Of a stretch of DNA of 64,000 nucleotides, positions 9,807-63,272 are shown in pieces; position 1 is the first letter of the stretch; every line of letters begins with the position of its first letter. Made by a program: the position numbers and the translations under genes. Source of the stretch: Synergistaceae bacterium (GTDB taxonomy: Bacteria; Synergistota; Synergistia; Synergistales; Aminobacteriaceae); contig JAHDKT010000029.1 in NCBI GenBank assembly GCA_018436725.1, positions 1 to 64,000 on the forward strand, read 5' to 3'. The notes beneath the pieces were generated by a model. That model ran no database searches. It was not told where the DNA came from and saw nothing but the letters and a program-made list of their open reading frames with translations.

Positions 9807-9882
9807 GCCGACTTAGCTCAGCAGGTAGAGCACATCCATGGTAAGGATGGGGTCTCCGGTTCAAGTCCGGAAGTCGGCTCCA
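9807..9882 (+). tRNA. tRNA-Thr (GGT)
   Basis: Acceptor stem GCCGACT/AGTCGGC, anticodon loop ATGGTAA (anticodon GGT), T arm GGTTCAAGTCC and encoded CCA. It is the last chromosomal gene before prophage DNA, so its 3' end is a plausible integration target. Confidence 0.95.
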
Positions 9883-11542: not shown

Positions 11543-12289
11543 TTAAGGTCTGTGATCAAGTTCCAAATCCGCTTTTACGATTTTCCCTCTGACGTGAACA
11601 AAGTCAACCTCTATATCCTCTTCTGTATATCCAAGCGCTCGTCCATCCGAGGAAAGCAATTTCCCCCCTGCGCCTGGGCGAGGATAAATTTTCTTAATTA
11701 CAGGGTTACCGTTTATTTCTACCAACACGATGTCCCCAGGCTTTATTTCTGCGGCGGGATTGACTATTACAGTGGTGTCTGGTGGTATGCCAAAGTCGAC
11801 CATGCTGGTCCCGTCTGTCGATATCGCGAAAGGGGGCCTGTATGGATCGATAGGTCCCAGCTTTTGCTCCGCTATAACCTCGAAATCCAAAGAATCGAGA
11901 TCCGTTACATCCCCATAAGCAACCCCCACACCGCCACAGTGAGCGGTGTATTCCACGGAAATCTTTGGAACAAACACAAGAGAATTTAGAGCAAAGAGCC
12001 CTCCCGGCAATCTCCGAAAGGATTGCATGGCATTTATAAGCGCTGGTTTTGTTTTATCATTTTTGTCTACGCGAGCTTCCGGTAAAACCAAATCCTCCAA
12101 AGAGATGTCCAGCGCCTGCGCAATGGCTTCCACGTCTTTCACAGAAGGAGACGTAATCCCCCTTTCCCACCTTCTTATGGTGTCACGAGAAAGTTTTCCT
12201 CCCCGAATACTCATCACCTTCTCGGCCAATACCTCTTGCGACATATCCCTTTTAGCCCTGCACAATTTGATGCGCTCCCCCACATCCAT
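11543..12289 (-). CDS. CI/LexA-type prophage repressor (XRE HTH plus S24 peptidase)
   Basis: Repressor of 248 aa that should keep the phage lytic genes off. Residues 5-65 are an XRE helix-turn-helix (SQEVLAEKV then LSRDTIRRWERG). The C-terminal half is an S24 autopeptidase: the nucleophile motif is GTSM (STDGTSMVDFGI), followed by IKPGDIVLVEINGNPVIKKI with the catalytic Lys. An AHCGGVGV stretch upstream is the likely self-cleavage zone after RecA activation. ATG follows an AGGGGG ribosome site. It is divergent from the Cro-like gene across 184 bases containing palindromes. Confidence 0.92.
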   Translation of the reverse strand: MDVGERIKLCRAKRDMSQEVLAEKVMSIRGGKLSRDTIRRWERGITSPSVKDVEAIAQALDISLEDLVLPEARVDKNDKTKPALINAMQSFRRLPGGLFALNSLVFVPKISVEYTAHCGGVGVAYGDVTDLDSLDFEVIAEQKLGPIDPYRPPFAISTDGTSMVDFGIPPDTTVIVNPAAEIKPGDIVLVEINGNPVIKKIYPRPGAGGKLLSSDGRALGYTEEDIEVDFVHVRGKIVKADLELDHRP

Positions 12290-18498: not shown

Positions 18499-18840
18499 AT
18501 GGAAACGAACGACGAGAAGAAAATCATCGATTTGTCGGAGCACGCGGAGGACGGTGCGGCAACGGCGGCGGATTCTCCGGACGGCGAAGCGCCCTGCGCG
18601 ATCGCCGTGACCGCCGACGCTTCCGGTCAAATATTCGCTTTCGCCGAAGCTTGCAAGCTGGAAGAGTACACGGACGGATCGTTCGAAAAAGCGAAAAAAA
18701 CCGCCGCGATGGCGAAGGCTCAGGAATCGATAGCGAAAGAGGATAAAAACTTGCCGGGGCCATCTATGAGACCAAAAAGCGACAGCTGTGCTGGGCAGAG
18801 GTCAGGGCGAAAATCGAAGAGGCCAGAGTCGAGAGCATAA
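18499..18840 (+). CDS. Hypothetical phage protein, N-terminal part; probably frameshifted
   Basis: Starts one base after the ATPase stop. The first 82 residues are acidic and helical (PCAIAVTADASGQIFAFAEA). After a run of five A bases (18745-18749) the frame turns into atypical, arginine/serine-rich sequence and stops at 18840. The -1 frame after the A run reads KLAGAIYETKKRQLCWAEVR and continues to 19121, so a single base seems to be missing from this gene. Confidence 0.6.
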   Translation: METNDEKKIIDLSEHAEDGAATAADSPDGEAPCAIAVTADASGQIFAFAEACKLEEYTDGSFEKAKKTAAMAKAQESIAKEDKNLPGPSMRPKSDSCAGQRSGRKSKRPESRA

Positions 18841-20257: not shown

Positions 20258-20950
20258 ATGACTGTCGAAGAGGTGAGAACGCACGTAAAAGCCTCCGCCG
20301 AAGCCCTCTTCGACGAGGGGCAGGTGACGGAGCTGCGGGTGATCATGCAGAACGGGTACATCCACAGCGGATACTACGACAACTTCGAAGCCCTTGCGGA
20401 AGCGGCCGCGCACTGGGACCGCAAAACGGGGACGCAGGGCATCTACTGGACGCTGAACCCTGTGCATCCGGACTGCCTCCACAGGGCGAAGAACAAGATG
20501 CGGGAGCGCGTGAGCAAGCGCCAGTCCACGACGAGCGACAAAGAAATCATCCGGCGAAAGTTGATTCTGGTGGACATCGACGGCGCGAACCGTCCGACGG
20601 GGGTGTCTTCGACGGACGACGAAGTCGCCAGGGCGAAGGAGTGCGCCCTGCGGGCCGCCGCGTTTCTCTTCCGGGAAAGAGGGTGGACGGCGCCCCTTGT
20701 CGGAATGTCCGGGAACGGATACCACCTTCTGTACAAGATCGACCTCCCGAACGACGACCGGTCGACGACCGCGGTGAAGAAGGTGCTACATGTTCTGGCG
20801 GCGCTCTTCGACGACGATGCGGTCAAGATCGACACGTCCGTTTTCAATGCGTCGAGGATTTCGAAGGTGTACGGGACGATGGTACGGAAGGGCGACGACA
20901 CGGGGGAGCGACCGCACAGACGGGCCGTTCTGGTAAGGGGGGGTTCGTGA
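20258..20950 (+). CDS. Archaeo-eukaryotic-type primase (AEP) catalytic protein
   Basis: Protein of 230 aa with the AEP active-site series: LVDID near residue 103, SGNGYHLLYKI near 160, and FNASRISKVYGT near 200 with the conserved Arg. It would make primers for phage replication. The start is ATG at 20258; the frame is open far upstream, but that part is the shadow of the antirepressor gene. Its stop overlaps the helicase start by one base, so in this phage the primase and helicase, often one polypeptide, are separate coupled genes. Confidence 0.87.
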   Translation: MTVEEVRTHVKASAEALFDEGQVTELRVIMQNGYIHSGYYDNFEALAEAAAHWDRKTGTQGIYWTLNPVHPDCLHRAKNKMRERVSKRQSTTSDKEIIRRKLILVDIDGANRPTGVSSTDDEVARAKECALRAAAFLFRERGWTAPLVGMSGNGYHLLYKIDLPNDDRSTTAVKKVLHVLAALFDDDAVKIDTSVFNASRISKVYGTMVRKGDDTGERPHRRAVLVRGGS

Positions 20951-23250
20951 TGGCGGCTTCAAGCATTGTCTCCGCGGACGCGGTCTATTCTCTCGCGGAA
21001 CTGTATCAGGAGGAGGAGCCGCGCCCGATAGGAAGGCCGCGAAAGGGGGACATGCTGGACGTCCCCCGGTGGATTCAGGAGCACCTTCCCGGGATAGAAG
21101 TGGTTCGTGAAAAGACATGGAACGGCGCATTGATCTACGAGCTTTCGGAGTGCCCTTTCGACGGGGCGCACAAGGCTCCGGATTCCATGATCATCCAGCA
21201 GACGAGCGGGGCGCTTGGGTTCAAGTGCTTCCACAACAGCTGTCAGGCGTACGGATGGAAGGAGCTGCGGGAAAAGGTCGACCCGCATGGAAACTACGAC
21301 GCTTCGCAGCGGAAAAAGAAGGCGAAGCGGACGCGGGAGGAGATCGAGGAGGACATCTTCGCGATCTCTCAGGATACTGGGTTACCCACGATCGAGCTGG
21401 GAGACCGGCAGCTGCGCGACGTGGAGGATGAATGCCTGGACGCTGTCATGGCTGCCGGGAAGGATGATCCCCTCGTGTACATTCGGGGAGACCGCCTTGT
21501 GCGGATCACGGAGGATTCGAAGGGCAATCCGAAGATCGACACGCTGACCAGCGAGGCCATTCCGACCATATTGACGCGGGCTGCGAATTTCGTGCGGACC
21601 ACAGGCGAAATGGTGACGGGCGTATTCCCGCCCGCCGATCTGGCGCGCGCCGTGGTGAACAGGGGACGATGGCCGTTCCCGCCTCTTCATGGGGTCGTCG
21701 AAATCCCGGTGCTTCGGGAGGATGGAACGATACTTGATACTCCCGGATACGACCGGGCGAGCGGACTGTATTTCATCCCGAGCGGGCCGGTGCCGTCGAT
21801 CAAAACGCATCCCACAAGGCAGGACGGTCAGGACGCTGCAAGGTTCATCATCGACATTCTTTCGGATTTTCCGCTGCAGGACGATTGTTCCCGGGACAAC
21901 TCGATCGGGACGCTATTGACGGCGGTTGTGAAGGAGTACGTCGGGCTGGCGCCGATGGCGCTGATCGATGCCCCGACGCAGGGCACGGGAAAAGGCAAGC
22001 TGGCGCAGCTCGTCTCCATCGTGGCGACGGGGCGAGAGCTGCCGGTGTCGACGGAGGTGCGCGACGACGAGGAGTGGCGGAAGCAGATCACTTCGACGCT
22101 GCTGGCCGACCGGCCCGTGGTGATCATAGACAACGTGGAGAAAACGCTTTCCTCCCCGCAGCTCGCGGCGGTGCTCACGTCCTCGGAGTGGTCGGACAGG
22201 CTTCTCGGAAGATCAGAGACTTTGCGTCTCTACGCACGAGCGATGTGGATCGCGACGGGTAACAACATCCGTCTGGGCGGAGACATCCCGAGGCGGTCGT
22301 ACTGGATTCGGCTGAACGCGAACATGGCCCGGCCGTGGACGCGCGATCCGAGGGGCTTCAAACGCGAACTGCCGGGATGGGCTTTCGAGCACCGTGCCGA
22401 GATCGTCGCCGCGTTGCTGACGATGGCGCGGGCGTGGTTTCTGGCCGGAAAGCCGGAGTGGAGCGGTCGTCCTCTGGGCAGCTACGAGAAGTGGTCGAAG
22501 GTGGTGGGCGGCATTCTGGAGTTCTGCGGATGCACGCAGTTCTTGAAGAACCTTGAAGATCTCTACGAGCAGTCGGACGACGAGCCCGCCCAGTGGAGCG
22601 AATTCATAGGGGACATTTTCGAGGGATTTCTTGAGGAAGAAAATACCGAGAGAGGGTACCAATTTTCAAGTAAAGACAATACCCCTACGGGTAGTAATTT
22701 TTTAGCAAAGGGAAAAAATAACAATCTGGAGTTTTCTGAACGCTCTACCCCTCCATTCACCGTGAGTCAGCTTGTGAAGCGGGTTTGCGGTGATTTAACC
22801 GAAAATCAACACGAGAGCGGCGAATTTTGGAGACCGCGAAAAATAATTACCGTTCCCGAATCGCTCGGAGACCCCAAAGACCGCACTTTTTCAAAACGTC
22901 TCAGTCATGCGCTGCGAAGAAGAAAAGACCAGATATTCGATACGCCGCAAGGGCTTGTGCAATTGAAGGCCGCGATACCTGACACCCACAAAAAGATGCA
23001 AAGATGGTCTTTATGTTCGGTACCAAGTGCGGGGTTAGCGGGTTCTGCGGTATTAACTCTCCCCCAGGTCTATACAGAAAAAAATAATTCGGAAATGCAA
23101 AGAACGCATAAGAGAATTAATTATATATCTGATATAGAGCCGGGGGAAACTAACCACGCAGAGCACGCTAAACCCGCAGATGAAGAAAAAGCCATCCTGA
23201 TCAATTTCGACGACGATCCGGACGAGCGGGCCGCGATTCAGGACGAGTGA
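20950..23250 (+). CDS. D5-like replicative helicase with primase zinc-finger region
   Basis: Protein of 766 aa. Residues 30-110 carry a CHC2-like zinc region (CPFDGAH and FKCFHNSC). The helicase core has Walker A (APTQGTGKGKL, about 340), Walker B (VVIIDNVE) and a sensor segment (WIATGNNIR followed by RRSYWIRL). Together with the upstream AEP gene it forms a primase-helicase system. From about 22,620 the coding DNA becomes AT-rich and the protein low in conservation, consistent with a swapped C-terminal module. Confidence 0.87.
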   Translation: MAASSIVSADAVYSLAELYQEEEPRPIGRPRKGDMLDVPRWIQEHLPGIEVVREKTWNGALIYELSECPFDGAHKAPDSMIIQQTSGALGFKCFHNSCQAYGWKELREKVDPHGNYDASQRKKKAKRTREEIEEDIFAISQDTGLPTIELGDRQLRDVEDECLDAVMAAGKDDPLVYIRGDRLVRITEDSKGNPKIDTLTSEAIPTILTRAANFVRTTGEMVTGVFPPADLARAVVNRGRWPFPPLHGVVEIPVLREDGTILDTPGYDRASGLYFIPSGPVPSIKTHPTRQDGQDAARFIIDILSDFPLQDDCSRDNSIGTLLTAVVKEYVGLAPMALIDAPTQGTGKGKLAQLVSIVATGRELPVSTEVRDDEEWRKQITSTLLADRPVVIIDNVEKTLSSPQLAAVLTSSEWSDRLLGRSETLRLYARAMWIATGNNIRLGGDIPRRSYWIRLNANMARPWTRDPRGFKRELPGWAFEHRAEIVAALLTMARAWFLAGKPEWSGRPLGSYEKWSKVVGGILEFCGCTQFLKNLEDLYEQSDDEPAQWSEFIGDIFEGFLEEENTERGYQFSSKDNTPTGSNFLAKGKNNNLEFSERSTPPFTVSQLVKRVCGDLTENQHESGEFWRPRKIITVPESLGDPKDRTFSKRLSHALRRRKDQIFDTPQGLVQLKAAIPDTHKKMQRWSLCSVPSAGLAGSAVLTLPQVYTEKNNSEMQRTHKRINYISDIEPGETNHAEHAKPADEEKAILINFDDDPDERAAIQDE

Positions 23251-27811: not shown

Positions 27812-27982
27812 ATGGACAAGATCAAACACACGGGCACGATGTACGCGGTCTGCCCGTGGTGCGGCAGGGAGGTCGCGGACAGCTGGGAATTATGGCACCC
27901 GGAAAGCGAGTGCGAGTGTAATCAGTGCGGGCGGTTGTTCAAGGCGACGCGGATTGTGACTGCGGAGAAGGTGGAGGCATGA
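27812..27982 (+). CDS. Zinc-ribbon protein, 56 aa
   Basis: Two CxxC pairs (VCPWCG at about 14 and CNQCG at about 36) with a preceding C-E-C make a four-Cys zinc ribbon of the Com type. In Mu, a Com zinc protein activates translation of mom; here a fused Mom-like gene lies about 9 kb downstream, but no direct link is shown. Strong ribosome site (GGAGGGG). Confidence 0.62.
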   Translation: MDKIKHTGTMYAVCPWCGREVADSWELWHPESECECNQCGRLFKATRIVTAEKVEA

Positions 27983-34109: not shown

Positions 34110-34571
34110 ATGGAACACAAAAACATCGAAGCGTTTTTTTCTTTCCTGGAGCGGAATTTGGCGAAGCCGGAGACCTTGAAAAGCGAAGGCGTTAGGCGGG
34201 AATGGGAGAGCGATCTTGAAAGGCAGACGGCAATAACCGGTTCCAGTCGCTTTGAGATTGATAGTAGTCAAACGAAAAACGGGTACCCGCAGACGTACTA
34301 CTTCCGACGGGAGCGTTTCCTCGACGGCGACGACTGGAACTACCGCATCATCCATGGAGAGATGGACAAGAACGTCAAGGTTGTTACAAATCGTAGCATC
34401 GCCCCCGCGTTCTGGTCGAGGGTCGACGTCGAGTCGGAGAGTGGAAACGTCGTCGCGGAATTCCTCGCAACGGGCGGATCGTCGTCCTGCGAAATATCCA
34501 TCTCGGAGATCGCCATGGCGTACGCAAAAAGCTTTTCCGAGTGGGAGGATGGCGCGGTGGAGGTTGGATAG
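34110..34571 (+). CDS. Hypothetical protein, 153 aa (accessory island)
   Basis: ATG 7 bases after AGGGGGGAG. Alpha/beta protein with HKNIEAFFSFLERNL, a beta-rich centre (WNYRIIHGEMDKNVKVVTN), SRVDVESESGNVVAEFLATG and a C-terminal helix. Family unknown. Confidence 0.57.
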   Translation: MEHKNIEAFFSFLERNLAKPETLKSEGVRREWESDLERQTAITGSSRFEIDSSQTKNGYPQTYYFRRERFLDGDDWNYRIIHGEMDKNVKVVTNRSIAPAFWSRVDVESESGNVVAEFLATGGSSSCEISISEIAMAYAKSFSEWEDGAVEVG

Positions 34572-34584
34572 GGAAATAAAAACT

Positions 34585-34612
34585 CCGCCTCTCCTTTTCA
34601 CGGGAGAGGCGG
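34585..34612. terminator. Hairpin between accessory cassettes
   Basis: A 10-bp perfect stem CCGCCTCTCC/GGAGAGGCGG. The T-rich side (AGTTTTTATT) lies on the minus strand, so it may serve leftward or both directions. Confidence 0.58.
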
Positions 34613-34696
34613 AAATCAGAGGTAGTATTTCTCGTGTTGCGCCCTTACGGGTATCAGAGGATAAAGGAACAATAGCACGTCGGGGGAGTGATGTCA

Positions 34697-35707
34697 ATGG
34701 GCGATTTGAAAAATATCGAACTTTCTCTTCACGCGGCATGTCCCGCAGCGTGGCGCGAAGCGGAGGGGATGCGAGCCAAGAAGGGAAGAGCGCTGCCACA
34801 TTGGAGCAGGTGGTGTTACCTCCCGCTTGCGGGGTGGATCGCGATCGTCTCCAGGGGCTGCGACATGTCGCAGGTCTCCGTGGAGCCCACGCAGGCGGCC
34901 GCACTCTTCGCGGCAATCGGATCATGGCGTATCGGGCGTGGAATATACCGTTTCGACGAAACTTTGTTTCAGGAGCTTATCTCCACACCGATGGAAGGGA
35001 ACATCCCTTGCGACGTGATCTTTCGTCTACCCGAGTGGTGCGTCTATCTGGAGACTGGGCCGCTCGGGTTCCCCGGGGTATTCGTCCACCTGGAGGAGGA
35101 CGCGAACAACGGGGAGAGGGAGCTGCGATTCCTTTTCCACGAGCCCGAAGGGGACCTTATCCCCGCCGTCGTTCATCTGGGAGACTATTCGCTCGCCGAG
35201 GGCGTGCGTCGCTCCGTGGAGATGGTCAAGCTCAACATGTCGAAACAGGGATTGCCCTATTCGTCCGAGCGAATGGCGTTGGACGCCGCGGGAATCATGA
35301 ACAAGGTGGGAAGCGTTATGCCGCTCGTGCTCTACATCTGCTCCGCAAACTCGGAGGTCAGGCGGCGCGAAAATGACGCGCAGCCTACGCGCAGGAAACC
35401 AAAGGGCAAGGCTGCAAAATTCGCCGTCTCTCCCACAACATGGGAGGTGGGGTACAGGATCGGCGCCGCCATCCGCGCAGGGCGATCGAAGGAAGAGCAA
35501 GGGGAATCGTCTGAGTCGCAGTATCCGGGGGTAGGTATACCAAAGCGTCCGCACGTGCGAAGGGCGCACTGGCACGGGTACTGGACGGGACCGCGCGACG
35601 GGAAGCGCCTCTTCTCGCTGAAGTGGCTACCGCCCATTCCCGTAAACATCGACACGGACGAAGACGGCCCGATGGTCATACATCCAGTAGAGGAGGAGCA
35701 ATCATGA
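34697..35707 (+). CDS. AcrVA2-like anti-CRISPR candidate
   Basis: Protein of 336 aa that resembles the AcrVA2 family over its length: GSWRIGRGIYRFDE and LPEWCVYLETG in the N-terminal half, and a signature RPHVRRAHWHGYW near residue 284, followed by a beta-strand end (FSLKWLPPIPVNID). Characterised AcrVA2 of Moraxella phage lowers Cas12a production by acting on its nascent chain and mRNA. Homologues occur in many mobile elements, also where Cas12a is unknown, so the target here is open. ATG at 34697 is 8 bases after GGGGGAG; GTG 34688 and ATG 34691 are alternatives. Followed directly by a partner-like gene. Confidence 0.78.
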   Translation: MGDLKNIELSLHAACPAAWREAEGMRAKKGRALPHWSRWCYLPLAGWIAIVSRGCDMSQVSVEPTQAAALFAAIGSWRIGRGIYRFDETLFQELISTPMEGNIPCDVIFRLPEWCVYLETGPLGFPGVFVHLEEDANNGERELRFLFHEPEGDLIPAVVHLGDYSLAEGVRRSVEMVKLNMSKQGLPYSSERMALDAAGIMNKVGSVMPLVLYICSANSEVRRRENDAQPTRRKPKGKAAKFAVSPTTWEVGYRIGAAIRAGRSKEEQGESSESQYPGVGIPKRPHVRRAHWHGYWTGPRDGKRLFSLKWLPPIPVNIDTDEDGPMVIHPVEEEQS

Positions 35708-36681: not shown

Positions 36682-38136
36682 ATGTTTCAGGGAACGATCC
36701 CGAGCAATGTTCAAATGATGCTTGGAGAGATAGTTGGCAGTTGGAACGCCAGCGATATTTACGTGGGATGCTCTGGTAATTTTACCGTCGAGCGCGTGTT
36801 GCATAACCACGCGAAGGCGAGGTTGCACGGAAACGACGTGACGGCGTACTCGTGTCTTATAGGCGATTACCTTGCGGGGAATGAATTGGGCGCGAGGGTT
36901 AACCCAAAGTACGACGGCCCGATGTCCTTTGTCGAGAAGTACATAACCGACGACGCTTCCGTAATCGCGGTAACGTTAATTCTCTCCAAGCTCGCGGATG
37001 CGCTGAAGTCAAAGAAAAGGAACGCGTATTACGAAAGACTGATCCAAGCGTATAAGGATCAGTGGGAAACCATCTTCGCCTCGCAGTATAACTTGGTGCT
37101 TGCGTTGCCAAAGATGCTGACGAGCTTCTGCCGGGGCGACGTTTGCGAATGGGTGAAGGGGCTCGACAAGAGTCAGGGGTTTATCTGTCACCCCCCCTTT
37201 TACAAGGGTGGTTACGAAAAAATGTTCGCGGCGATAGAGGACGTAATCGCGTGGGCTCCACCAGAGTACGAAATGATCGACCAGGAAAAAATTCATGCGC
37301 TTTTCGAGGAGGCGATGGGTTTCAGGCATTTTCTATTCGTAATAAACAAAGAAATGCCAGAACTCAAAAAAAACCTCATAGGATTAGCACAGACGACCAA
37401 CAGGGGGACGCCGTTATATGTCTATGCGAACCACGACCGGTCGAGGATTGTCATGCCGTCGCAGAAAGCCACAACGCCAGCAATAGCGAGGTTAGGGCAA
37501 AATGACGACGTTGGAGAAACAATCTCCTTGGTAAAGCTGCAATCGGCAGAATTCCAAGGCTTGCGGTCTCAATATCTAAACCCGCACATCAAACCGGCGA
37601 GCGAGTCTTTGGCACTGGGGGTTGTGGTAGATAAAAAACTTGTGGGAGCCTTCGCCGTATCCGTAGCCCCAACAATGGGAAATTTCGATAAACACGTAAG
37701 CACGCCGACCGTCTACCTCTTGAGCGATTTTCCCGTCGCCCCATCCAAGTACAAGAGGCTTGCAAAGCTTGTGCTCTACGCGGCGCTGAGCAAAGAGTCG
37801 AAACTGATAATGGAGATGCTTTCGAACAGGAGAGCAAGAACGCTCATTACGACAGCGTTTTCAAAGAAGCCCGTGTCAATGAAGTACCGCGGGCTTTTTG
37901 ATCTCGTCTCAAAAAAGGAGCTTGACGGTGTGGATGAGAATGAAACGGACATGTCGAAAATCTACTACGGGTCAGGGTTCCAGCTGAACTACGCGGCCCC
38001 CCTGGGTGCATGGACGCTCCAAGAGGGACTGGCGCTCTGGAAAAAGAAGTGCTCGCAGGTTGAGCAAAAAGAGGAGGTGTGTGAGGTTGGACGTCCACGT
38101 GATGGAGATAGACCCGCGGGAGCTCCGATTACTTGA
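36682..38136 (+). CDS. Fused adenine-methyltransferase-like and GNAT (Mom-like) protein, putative anti-restriction DNA modification
   Basis: Protein of 484 aa. N-terminal half looks like an adenine methyltransferase fold: a glycine-containing YVGCSGNFTVER motif at 27-37 and HPPFYKGGYE at 170-179 in the place of the catalytic D/N-PP-Y/F motif (His replaces Asp/Asn). The C-terminal half (about 300-440) looks like a GNAT acyltransferase of the Mom kind, with LALGVVVDKKLVGAFAVSV and RARTLITTAFSKKP then SMKYRG. Similar phage proteins are annotated as anti-restriction adenine methyltransferases. It may modify adenines to block host nucleases. The ParB-like gene overlaps its end by 50 bases. Confidence 0.68.
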   Translation: MFQGTIPSNVQMMLGEIVGSWNASDIYVGCSGNFTVERVLHNHAKARLHGNDVTAYSCLIGDYLAGNELGARVNPKYDGPMSFVEKYITDDASVIAVTLILSKLADALKSKKRNAYYERLIQAYKDQWETIFASQYNLVLALPKMLTSFCRGDVCEWVKGLDKSQGFICHPPFYKGGYEKMFAAIEDVIAWAPPEYEMIDQEKIHALFEEAMGFRHFLFVINKEMPELKKNLIGLAQTTNRGTPLYVYANHDRSRIVMPSQKATTPAIARLGQNDDVGETISLVKLQSAEFQGLRSQYLNPHIKPASESLALGVVVDKKLVGAFAVSVAPTMGNFDKHVSTPTVYLLSDFPVAPSKYKRLAKLVLYAALSKESKLIMEMLSNRRARTLITTAFSKKPVSMKYRGLFDLVSKKELDGVDENETDMSKIYYGSGFQLNYAAPLGAWTLQEGLALWKKKCSQVEQKEEVCEVGRPRDGDRPAGAPIT

Positions 38137-38966: not shown

Positions 38967-39494
38967 ATGCCTGCGTTCGATAAATACAATTCGAAGTATC
39001 ACGATGACTGGGGGTGGTCCCTCGCCATTAAGGGATGCACTAATGAGGAGATTGCAACGGCATTCGGCATAAGCAAGCGGACTTTGATCAGATGGATGAA
39101 CCAGTACGAATCGCTAAAAAACGCCATCAACGAGGGGAAGGCTTCGGCTGACGCCAAGGTCGAAAGAAAGCTCTACGAGCGCGCTCTTGGCTATGAGGTG
39201 GAAGAGGAGCAGAAGGTTTTAAACGTAAGCAAAGAAGGTGGATCTCGGATAGGCAGAATCACCATAACGAAAAAACACGTGCCCCCAGACCCGACCTCTT
39301 GCATTTTTTGGTTAAAAAATCGACACCCTGATATCTGGCGCGACGTGCAGCGCATGGAGCACGGCGGCAAGGTGGAGGTGAGCCATGACCCGCAGATCGA
39401 GCGGCTCATCGAAGACCCCGAGGCGCAGCGCCTCCTCGCGGAACTCCACGCGAGAGCGACTTCAGGACACGTGGAAGGCGCTGGCGAGGCGTAG
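38967..39494 (+). CDS. Terminase small subunit
   Basis: DNA-recognition subunit of the packaging motor, 175 aa. N-terminal helix-turn-helix (AIKGCTNEEIATAFGISKRT, then LIRWMNQY), an oligomerisation helix region and a C-terminal tail that contacts the large subunit. Starts 4 bases after the ParB-like stop. The last 110 bases overlap the large subunit gene in another frame. Confidence 0.84.
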   Translation: MPAFDKYNSKYHDDWGWSLAIKGCTNEEIATAFGISKRTLIRWMNQYESLKNAINEGKASADAKVERKLYERALGYEVEEEQKVLNVSKEGGSRIGRITITKKHVPPDPTSCIFWLKNRHPDIWRDVQRMEHGGKVEVSHDPQIERLIEDPEAQRLLAELHARATSGHVEGAGEA

Positions 39495-40854
39495 GTTCTG
39501 GTTCTTCTGCCAGTACTCGCACTTCGGCAAGTGGCGTCTCGCTCCCCATCTGGAACTCCTCTGCTCCGAACTCGAAGAGGTCGAGGCCGGGCGACTTGAT
39601 CGGTTGATTCTGACTGTCCCTCCGCGACATGGCAAGTCTATGTGCGTCACGGAGACCTTTCCGGCCTGGTATCTGGGCCGCAATCCCGAGAAGCGCGTCA
39701 TCGAGGCGTCGTACAGCGACGATCTCGCCCGGACCTTCGGCGACAAGTGCCGCCGGAAGATCGAAACCTTTGGCCCGGAACTCTGGGGGCTGGAGATCGA
39801 CCGTCGGCGCGCGGACAAGTCCGACTGGGGGATCAAGGATCACAACGGCGGAATGGTCTCGGCGGGGATCGGCGGAGGAATCACGGGCAAAGGGGCCGAC
39901 CTGCTGATAATCGACGACCCGGTAAAGAACAGACAGGAAGCCGACTCGCAGACCTACCGCGACCGCGTCTGGTCGGAGTGGCAATCCACCCTTTCCACGC
40001 GGCTGCATCCGATGGCCGCGGTCGTCGTCGTCCTGACCCGATGGCACGAGGACGACCTTGCCGGAAGGCTGATCAAAGCGGAGCCGAACAGGTGGAAGCT
40101 GCTGAACCTCCCGGCTATCGCCGAGGAGAACGACCCGCTCGGACGTCCGATAGGCGCGGCGCTCTGGCCGGAGAGGTACGACGAGGCCGAGCTTGCACGG
40201 AAAAAGATTACGTCTGGATCGCGCGACTGGGAGGCGTTATATCAAGGGAGGCCGAGTCCGACGAAGGGATCCATCCTTCTCCGGGGGTGGTGGAGGGAAT
40301 ACCGCTTGCCTCCCGAGACGATGGTGAAAGGTATGGATCAGGTGATTCTGTCGTTCGACTGCGCCTTCAAGGACAAGGACACATCCGACTACGTCGTCGG
40401 TCAGGTGTGGTGCCGAAAGGGGCCGGACGCCTATCTGCTCGACCAGGTGCGCGGCCGGATGGACTTTCCCTCTACGCAGCGAGCGTTGAAGGCTCTGTCG
40501 GCCAAGTGGCCGATGGCGCGGGCGAAGCTCGTGGAGGATAAGGCGAACGGCACGGCGATCATAGCGAGCCTTCGCAAGGAGACGTCCGGCCTCATCCCAA
40601 TCGAGCCGGACGGCGGCAAGGTAGTCCGGGCGAACGCCGTGACCCCGTTCATCGAGGCGGGGAACGTCCATCTGCCCGAACCTCGCTTCGCTCCGTGGAT
40701 CGGCGACTTCATCGAGGAGTGCGCCGCGTTCCCGAACGGAGCGCACGACGACCAGGTGGACGCTATGACGCAGGCACTCTCCCATCTGCTGGGTAGGTGC
40801 AGAGGCGGAAAACCCGTAGCAGGCGGCGCCAGACAGGCGCACCTGCTTTTTTAA
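39385..40854 (+). CDS. Terminase large subunit
   Basis: Packaging ATPase-nuclease of 489 aa. Walker A PPRHGKS near residue 81, Walker B LLIIDDP near 173, C motif region VVVLTRWHEDD, and the RNase H-like nuclease with SFDCAFKDKDTSD near 327 and HDDQVDAM near 453. Start ATG follows GGTGGAGGTG inside the small-subunit gene, an unusually long but convincing overlap. Confidence 0.94.
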   Translation: MTRRSSGSSKTPRRSASSRNSTRERLQDTWKALARRRFWFFCQYSHFGKWRLAPHLELLCSELEEVEAGRLDRLILTVPPRHGKSMCVTETFPAWYLGRNPEKRVIEASYSDDLARTFGDKCRRKIETFGPELWGLEIDRRRADKSDWGIKDHNGGMVSAGIGGGITGKGADLLIIDDPVKNRQEADSQTYRDRVWSEWQSTLSTRLHPMAAVVVVLTRWHEDDLAGRLIKAEPNRWKLLNLPAIAEENDPLGRPIGAALWPERYDEAELARKKITSGSRDWEALYQGRPSPTKGSILLRGWWREYRLPPETMVKGMDQVILSFDCAFKDKDTSDYVVGQVWCRKGPDAYLLDQVRGRMDFPSTQRALKALSAKWPMARAKLVEDKANGTAIIASLRKETSGLIPIEPDGGKVVRANAVTPFIEAGNVHLPEPRFAPWIGDFIEECAAFPNGAHDDQVDAMTQALSHLLGRCRGGKPVAGGARQAHLLF

Positions 40855-40875: not shown

Positions 40876-42099
40876 ATGACAAATGTGGACGTGACGAAGA
40901 CCTACGGCGTCGGATACTCAGACGTCCTGATGCAGCTTCTGTTCTCGCTCTCGCAGCCGGTACAGAACCCGGAGCAGATGCTTCCGGAATACCACGAAAT
41001 GGCGGAGATGGACGAGACCGTCGGGACCGGGCTGGAATTTCTGTGCTATGCGGTGGTCTCGAAGATCCAGCCGTTCGATCACCCCGATTCCCGCGTCAAG
41101 GACCTGGTGCGCCTTTGCGGAGAACGCATCTCGGGCACGCTGGAGGAGTCTCGCAGGGCGCTGCTTTCCAGTGCGCTAACGTACGGTTTCGGCGTCGAAG
41201 AGTTCACGCTCGGAGTGAGCAACTCCCAGTGGTTCTTGTCTTCACTGCAACTGTTCGACGCGCTGACCGTGAGATTCCTTTTCGAGAAGGCCGCGGACAA
41301 CTCTCTGCGAATCGCGACGATACGGCAGACCGCCGCGGGCAAGGAGATCGATATTCCCGCCTCGAAGTGCCTCGTATTCCGCCACAACGCCGGGACGAAT
41401 CCTTATGGACGGTCCCGCCTCAAACGATGCTGGCGCTGGTACTCCTTCAAGCGCGCGATTCCGAAGTTCTGGGCTATCGCTCTCGAACGCTTCGGAATGC
41501 CGATGTTGGTGGGGAAAAGTTCCGATCCGAAGGCGTTGGAGGAGATTCTGAAGGACGCATACAGTCAAGCGTACGCGTCGATCTATACAGACGACAGCAT
41601 CGAGGCGGTCGGACAAGGCATGCCAGCCGGGCTCAGCGGAGCGTACGAGAGCGCCGCCGAGTTCTGCAACAAGATGATTTACAGAAGTCTTTTCCTTCCG
41701 TCTCTGCTGGAAAGCGGCGACGGCGGAGGCTCCTACGCTCTGGGGAAAATCCATTGGCAAATGTTCAACGATGCGTGCATCTGGCTGGCGAAGGAGCTGG
41801 CGGAGGCCGAGATAGAGCGGTTATGGCGCCCGATCATCGAGTGGAACTTGGGCCCGATGGAGAGTTACGGCACGCTGAACGTCTTTAACTCTCAGACTCC
41901 CGAGGAGCAGGAAATCATGTCAAGGATTTTCCTGAACGGGGTCAACGCCGGGATGCTGTTCCCGGAGGAGGGCGACGCCGACTGGATGCGGGAAAGGCTG
42001 GGCTTTCCCCTCAGTCCGGAGGGGGGTGAAGCCGACGGATGGAGAGCAAAATTATCTCGGCTGGAAGGGACAATAGCCGACGGGCAAAAATCAGGATAG
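40876..42099 (+). CDS. Portal protein, Mu gp29-like (DUF935)
   Basis: Protein of 407 aa. Portal features: an acidic N-terminal region (LPEYHEMAEMDETVGTGLEF), the clip and wing segments with FRHNAGTNPYGRSRLKR, WAIALERFGMPMLVGK and a C-terminal helical crown. It forms the dodecameric ring for DNA entry. Overlaps the next gene by 61 bases. Confidence 0.88.
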   Translation: MTNVDVTKTYGVGYSDVLMQLLFSLSQPVQNPEQMLPEYHEMAEMDETVGTGLEFLCYAVVSKIQPFDHPDSRVKDLVRLCGERISGTLEESRRALLSSALTYGFGVEEFTLGVSNSQWFLSSLQLFDALTVRFLFEKAADNSLRIATIRQTAAGKEIDIPASKCLVFRHNAGTNPYGRSRLKRCWRWYSFKRAIPKFWAIALERFGMPMLVGKSSDPKALEEILKDAYSQAYASIYTDDSIEAVGQGMPAGLSGAYESAAEFCNKMIYRSLFLPSLLESGDGGGSYALGKIHWQMFNDACIWLAKELAEAEIERLWRPIIEWNLGPMESYGTLNVFNSQTPEEQEIMSRIFLNGVNAGMLFPEEGDADWMRERLGFPLSPEGGEADGWRAKLSRLEGTIADGQKSG

Positions 42100-62968: not shown

Positions 62969-63272
62969 CGGGAAAATCGTCATGGAGGAGGCTGACTACC
63001 GCCTCCTGATCACCGAGATTCAGACTCTCAAGGCCGAGGCCGCAGCGCTTCGGGCGGTCGTCGAGAAGGAGCGCGCCGGGCAGAACGAATACATGGTCCG
63101 CGTCTCGCTGGAACGCCAGGCACACGAGGCGTTGTTCGAGGCTCAGAAAGACCGCATCGACCGGTTGACGCGGCAGAAGTGGTATCCGGGGATCATCGCC
63201 GGGGTCGGCGGTACATGGAAGGGGGAGGTCCAGGGTGTTGTCGGCATCGGCTGGAAAATCGACCTGTGGTGA
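62853..63272 (+). CDS. Exported coiled-coil protein, outer-spanin-like, 139 aa
   Basis: N-terminal signal sequence (MSWLILATLCFVALPQATA after a short basic lead), then a coiled coil (EIQTLKAEAAALRAVVEKER) and a C-terminal beta end (VGGTWKGEVQGVVGIGWKI). The last strand pattern resembles outer-membrane or periplasmic anchors. Embedded 116 bases within the preceding gene, as Rz1 is within Rz. No clear lipobox, so the outer-membrane link is uncertain. Confidence 0.63.
   Translation: MRQAQKRSATKWISMSWLILATLCFVALPQATAEIRRADGKIVMEEADYRLLITEIQTLKAEAAALRAVVEKERAGQNEYMVRVSLERQAHEALFEAQKDRIDRLTRQKWYPGIIAGVGGTWKGEVQGVVGIGWKIDLW

Follow-up and report, generated by a model that had tools for sequence, protein, structure and literature searches.

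AcrVA2 of Moraxella phages (7CI1, 7CI2) is known as an inhibitor of Cas12a. A gene predicted to encode an AcrVA2-like anti-CRISPR lies in a 64,000-nucleotide stretch of a Synergistaceae contig (JAHDKT010000029.1, positions 1 to 64,000; hereafter the window), and thus in a host far from Moraxella. The locus raises the question of whether this host has a Cas12a for the protein to act on, or whether the family to which it belongs has another target.

The prophage gene encodes a full-length AcrVA2 homologue

The gene has 336 open codons from an ATG, and two alternative in-frame starts, GTG at 34688 and ATG at 34691, lie just upstream, preceded by GGGGGAG. The gene and its motifs are:

34697–35707, plus strand: AcrVA2/FinQ-superfamily protein of 336 aa (PHROG 6160), by phmmer, PHROG profile, fold and pN/pS
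34919–34960, plus strand: motif 1, GSWRIGRGIYRFDE (residues 75–88), with W77 in 85 of 87 non-redundant relatives
35027–35059, plus strand: motif 2, LPEWCVYLETG (residues 111–121), with P112 in 87 of 88 relatives
35546–35590, plus strand: C-terminal signature RPHxRRxHWHxYWxG, with H286, R288 and H291 in every relative of an 18-row alignment

Searching with phmmer, we found that the 336-aa protein matches the PDB sequences of AcrVA2 (7ci1/7ci2) with E=4.4e-18, and that the matches ranking below AcrVA2 were noise. The match to 7ci1 consists of two separately significant stretches (residues 73–120 and 204–317), and the profile of PHROG 6160, for which no function is listed, covers residues 14–319 (E=2.9e-58). 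An AlphaFold2 model of the protein (17-row alignment, pLDDT 74.6) retrieved AcrVA2 in Foldseek at 2e-14 and aligned with 7ci1 across model residues 1–317 with a VIA Z of 21.1, against 2.8 for the next unrelated fold. Because the phmmer stretches, the profile coverage and the fold agree, the match to AcrVA2 is full length and not confined to the C-terminal motif. The three motifs that the original prediction had named as shared with AcrVA2, in the same order and at similar length, were all found in the protein, the third, RPHVRRAHWHGYW, at residues 284–296. The relationship to AcrVA2 thus held up: the product of 34697–35707 is a true full-length AcrVA2 homologue, at about 20–25% identity, and its membership of an AcrVA2/FinQ superfamily is nearly certain. 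Pfam, NCBIfam and PADLOC hold no model for it. Besides AcrVA2, the Foldseek and VIA searches returned nothing of note, so the structure assigns no catalytic mechanism to the C-terminal module.

Six residues (W77, P112, H286, R288, H291 and G298) do not vary in the 18-row family alignment. A comparison of 88 non-redundant sequences gave a concordant picture; because this larger set was gathered partly via the C-terminal motif, its C-terminal invariance is biased. A 416-aa viral protein (L012:4146–5393 and L013) carries a C-terminal RRAHWHGYWTGPR module behind an N-terminal part that is largely different, and the C-terminal module could therefore be one that is exchanged between proteins.

Measured against a copy on a viral contig, to which it is 97% identical, the gene has a pN/pS of 0.11, indicating that it is maintained by purifying selection. 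When the region 34397–35707 was compared with the related viral contig L003, the AcrVA2-like gene showed 45 differences in 1005 nt (95.5% identity) and was more divergent than the surrounding 6.3-kb block (about 98.7% identity); judged from the sequences, the gene looks as if it had been swapped or diversified.

The gene is probably autonomous cargo of a temperate phage

Three features of the window define the prophage:

9836–9882, plus strand: attL, the final 47 nt of tRNA-Thr(GGT), with an exact copy (attR) at contig positions 65004–65050, beyond the window
11543–12289, minus strand: CI-type prophage repressor (PHROG transcriptional repressor, 5e-25)
39385–40854, plus strand: terminase large subunit of the same prophage (PHROG 38, 7e-127)

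The span from attL to attR gives a chromosomal prophage of about 55 kb in a tRNA-Thr gene, in which the AcrVA2-like gene has the replication region on one side and the terminase on the other. The prophage also encodes an AntA antirepressor, a helicase, a resolvase, a ParB-like protein, a Mu-like portal and protease, and capsid, tail and lysis genes. Both the location in a prophage and the non-Moraxella host, which we judge from its 16S sequence to be a member of the Synergistota, were predicted correctly. Close to the AcrVA2-like gene, window positions 36682–38136 encode a protein in which a phage DAM-like domain is fused to a phage GNAT-like one (PF22555 and PF22559), making it a candidate for DNA modification. 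No Acr or Aca family was named when 45 prophage ORFs were scanned with NCBIfam and Pfam, libraries that contain few Acr families.

No partner gene is kept near family members among 114 loci, as expected for a protein that works alone, and autonomous cargo of a temperate phage is the best reading of the gene. The protein might instead regulate a gene of the phage that carries it or of the host and not be a weapon at all. Purifying selection would suit such a role, as would the fact that no defence target is proven, but the patchy distribution without conserved neighbours fits cargo better than core phage regulation, and we consider a regulatory role very unlikely.

FinQ belongs to the same family

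A tblastn search with the 336-aa protein matched 99 phage records (Moraxella, Leptospira, Lactobacillus, Pasteurella, Shewanella and jumbo Erwinia phages) and 659 plasmid records. Among the plasmid matches listed, most are IncI-type plasmids with the gene annotated as finQ; the identification as FinQ is that of the record annotation, and the sequence compared below is from pESBL-12, not from the original R820a. This FinQ matches AcrVA2 7ci1 with E=3.5e-16, the AcrVA2 of Moraxella phage Mcat24 with 26% identity over 279 aa, and the 336-aa protein with 28% identity over 286 aa (102 bits, residues 77–333). FinQ therefore belongs to the same family as AcrVA2 and the 336-aa protein, and the family is carried by conjugative plasmids as well as by temperate and jumbo phages. 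Distant members are found in jumbo phages of Erwinia amylovora (L020 and about 60 phage records), a host whose CRISPR systems are of types I-E and I-F and which is not known to carry Cas12a.

The FinQ proteins of IncI1 plasmids such as R820a share homology over residues 77–333 (about 25–28% identity) and the C-terminal signature with the 336-aa protein, but they are carried by conjugative plasmids and act on F tra transcripts, whereas the 336-aa protein is encoded by a chromosomal prophage. In the family tree, the deep nodes of which were not resolved, the 336-aa protein grouped with neither AcrVA2 nor FinQ. ORF43 of phage vB_SbaS_Y11 (PMC10846135) is another member of the family, with 29% identity to the 336-aa protein, but it comes from a Shewanella phage and groups with the Moraxella AcrVA2 proteins in the tree. 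AcrVA2-like genes beyond Moraxella are thus already recognised. In a docking study of Y11, residues of a peptide pocket were proposed, but these vary within the family alignment and hence are no help in assigning a target. In a literature search whose coverage did not extend to the primary AcrVA2 papers we found no paper naming both AcrVA2 and FinQ; the link between the two, like the type I-E self-targeting described below, looks new.

By analogy with the action of FinQ on F, the 336-aa protein could act against competing mobile elements, such as superinfecting phages or conjugative plasmids. The homology to FinQ and the range of mobile elements (phages, both temperate and jumbo, and conjugative plasmids) that carry the family are in line with this idea, but the nearest relatives of the protein are phage genes and not plasmid genes, and no competitor target was identified. 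We regard it as unlikely.

The host has no detectable Cas12a

TIGR04330 matched no Cas12a in the host genome (G000; 4.78 Mb, 127 contigs), and none was found in nine other family-bearing genomes, leaving 10 of the 11 examined without Cas12a. The search itself works, since it found Cas12a in two (G015 and G074) of 188 Synergistota genomes; five genomes of the host's genus had none, nor had the host's taxonomic family. Because none was found there, a resident Cas12a is excluded as the target in this host, which lowers the claim that the protein is a Cas12a inhibitor but not its homology to AcrVA2. Of the two answers that the original prediction had left open, a Cas12a in the host was thus not borne out, and a different target gained ground with the inclusion in the family of FinQ, which is reported to act on tra expression of the F plasmid.

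Only two of the 188 Synergistota genomes carry the AcrVA2 family, the host and G074, which belongs to the same order. In G074, two or more intact AcrVA2-family genes accompany a Cas12a that starts ...IYQLSKTLRFEL and includes the LSKT motif; by a hand calculation, the probability that Cas12a and the family coincide in one Synergistota genome by chance is about 0.02. Its locus (L048; G074:C31:1–16000) reads cas12a-cas4-cas1-cas2, with a transposase adjoining cas2 at the contig end, and contains no type V-A array within 16 kb of cas12a. Some relatives thus plausibly face Cas12a.

The phage might likewise meet Cas12a in other hosts, so that Cas12a would be the target, as for AcrVA2, and its lack in the present host would be incidental. 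The coexistence of Cas12a and intact family genes in G074, at odds of chance as low as those given above, argues for this reading. Against it stand the missing Cas12a in the host's genus and family and in nearly all family-bearing genomes examined, and the family proteins of G074 are just 33% identical to the 336-aa protein. We judge this reading improbable, although less so than regulation of a phage or host gene.

Spacers of the host type I-E system match the prophage

The host has one cas operon, of type I-E, comprising cas3 (883 aa), cse1, cse2, cas7, cas5, cas6, cas1 and cas2, all eight with open reading frames. Its array (L038, G000:C36:15000–34999; contig positions 20914–28000) has about 75 repeats and 74 readable spacers and is interrupted by an IS21-type istA/istB pair. 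Allowing up to five mismatches, 11 of the 74 spacers match the prophage in the window (four perfectly, one with a single far-end mismatch and four with two mismatches), whereas shuffled spacers gave no match. Two further host spacers match the related viral contig L003. The protospacers in the window include:

21901–21932, plus strand: protospacer of spacer 58 from the leader; 32/32, PAM AAC
20528–20559, minus strand: protospacer of spacer 4; one mismatch at position 32, PAM AAC
18625–18656, minus strand: protospacer of spacer 5; 32/32, flank AGC
27845–27876, plus strand: protospacer of spacer 7; 32/32, flank TAC
63056–63087, plus strand: protospacer of spacer 29; 32/32, flank GGC
41170–41201, minus strand: protospacer of spacer 68; two mismatches, PAM AAC

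The leader-proximal spacers 2, 4, 5 and 7, four of the seven newest, match the prophage, and we therefore conclude that they were acquired recently from this phage. The flanking (PAM) consensus of the prophage protospacers is AAC. The opposite orientation of the array, which would give a PAM of TCC, was rejected, because the repeat shape, the degenerate end repeat and the side on which cas2 lies place the array on the minus strand, with AAC. In the canonical orientation a GGA (TCC otherwise) is found on the 3' flank of the protospacers at 18625, 20528, 21901, 27845 and 41170 and of one in L003. The tetranucleotide composition of the CRISPR contig, cas genes excepted, is that of other host contigs; the genome has 7% contamination, and a strain mixture may lie behind the matches between spacers and prophage.

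We found the same arrangement in Marinomonas shanghaiensis DSL-35 (G003; C56, C21), which has a complete I-E operon. Six of its 102 I-E spacers match the 49-kb contig that carries its AcrVA2-family gene, one of them perfectly and with the classical PAM AAG, while 184 kb of other contigs gave no match, nor did shuffled spacers. This case is free of most of the doubt about strain mixture, as its record is that of a named strain rather than of a metagenome bin. I-E Cas7 occurs in 4 of 10 other family-bearing genomes compared with 21 of 188 Synergistota genomes, a comparison between different taxa and hence only suggestive of I-E being commoner among family-bearing genomes. A Shewanella genome with a type I-E system and without Cas12a also features in the paper on the AcrVA2-like ORF43 (PMC10846135). 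D. piger has an I-E system, and none of its spacers, only 10 in number, matches its prophage.

A narrower version of the explanation we favour below would make the 336-aa protein an anti-CRISPR that lowers Cascade or Cas3 mRNA and so lets the prophage coexist with the host I-E system. The complete operon, the spacers directed against the prophage (including several of the newest, with the PAM consensus AAC), the parallel in Marinomonas, the distribution of I-E Cas7 and the lack of any recognised known Acr in the prophage all point in this direction. On the other hand, the Acr could be any other prophage gene that went unrecognised, strains may be mixed in the contaminated genome, an I-E system that targets its own genome may just be silent, D. 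piger offers no self-match, and the host I-E Cas proteins lack an LSKT-like N-terminus. On balance we see this as a possibility that deserves attention but is rather doubtful as it stands; a Cas protein of the resident I-E system is our guess at the most attractive single target candidate.

A proposed shared mechanism with member-specific targets

According to a review that covers a preprint (PMC13131331), AcrVA2 binds the nascent N-terminus of Cas12a (LSKT) and causes the loss of its mRNA. AcrVA2 reportedly also acts on other tagged nucleases (meeting report, PMC12908700), and AcrVA2.1 partly inhibits Cas12a2 (PMC9811890). FinQ, according to PMC8744291 (citing Ham and Skurray 1989), lowers or ends F tra transcripts at several sites and independently of Rho. 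One mRNA-lowering mechanism with differing target peptides fits AcrVA2 and FinQ alike, and such a shared mechanism predicts another peptide for the 336-aa protein.

The explanation we favour, at slightly better than even odds, is that the 336-aa protein is a full-length AcrVA2/FinQ member and autonomous phage cargo that couples nascent-peptide recognition to mRNA loss, with targets specific to each member. By homology, such a mechanism is likely for this protein. As a specific short peptide leaves the ribosome, a groove in the central domain would bind it, and the basic/aromatic module conserved at the C-terminus (H286, R288, H291) would couple this recognition to the loss of the translated mRNA, a division of labour that we infer. 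The peptide read would differ by member: that of Cas12a for the Moraxella AcrVA2 proteins, one encoded in the F tra operon in the case of FinQ, and for the 336-aa protein a further peptide, not one from a resident Cas12a.

Several points weaken this explanation. The decay of mRNA has been reported for Moraxella AcrVA2 only, and FinQ was described as a transcription terminator and not as an mRNA-decay factor. The 336-aa protein has about 25% identity to AcrVA2 and FinQ and groups with neither, and the docking-derived pocket residues vary. Moreover, a search of the F tra proteins for an LSKT-like N-terminus returned only TrbB (MSLTKS...), at about chance level. With no convincing LSKT-like N-terminus among the F tra proteins, FinQ, if peptide-directed, must read something other than LSKT.

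Implications for the AcrVA2/FinQ family

It is the connection to FinQ and the I-E self-targeting, rather than the gene itself, that raise the interest of this locus. To our knowledge, translation-coupled destruction of mRNA directed by a short peptide is hardly known in bacteria beyond AcrVA2. Across the family, the genes silenced are probably various, belonging to rivals or to defence. As a bolder proposal, which we put forward tentatively and think unlikely to hold in full, AcrVA2 and FinQ would be branches of a large mobile-element family of nascent-peptide-directed mRNA silencers with varying targets, and in Synergistota and Marinomonas phages the target would be a Cas protein of the resident I-E system, making these members I-E anti-CRISPRs that act on Cas expression. 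The I-E self-targeting in two unrelated hosts provides a concrete first candidate for a target other than Cas12a. If FinQ, present in hundreds of sequenced IncI plasmid records, works in the same way, the decades-old puzzle of how F tra transcripts are stopped at multiple sites would become directly testable, and the family would be a natural collection of peptide-addressed gene silencers.
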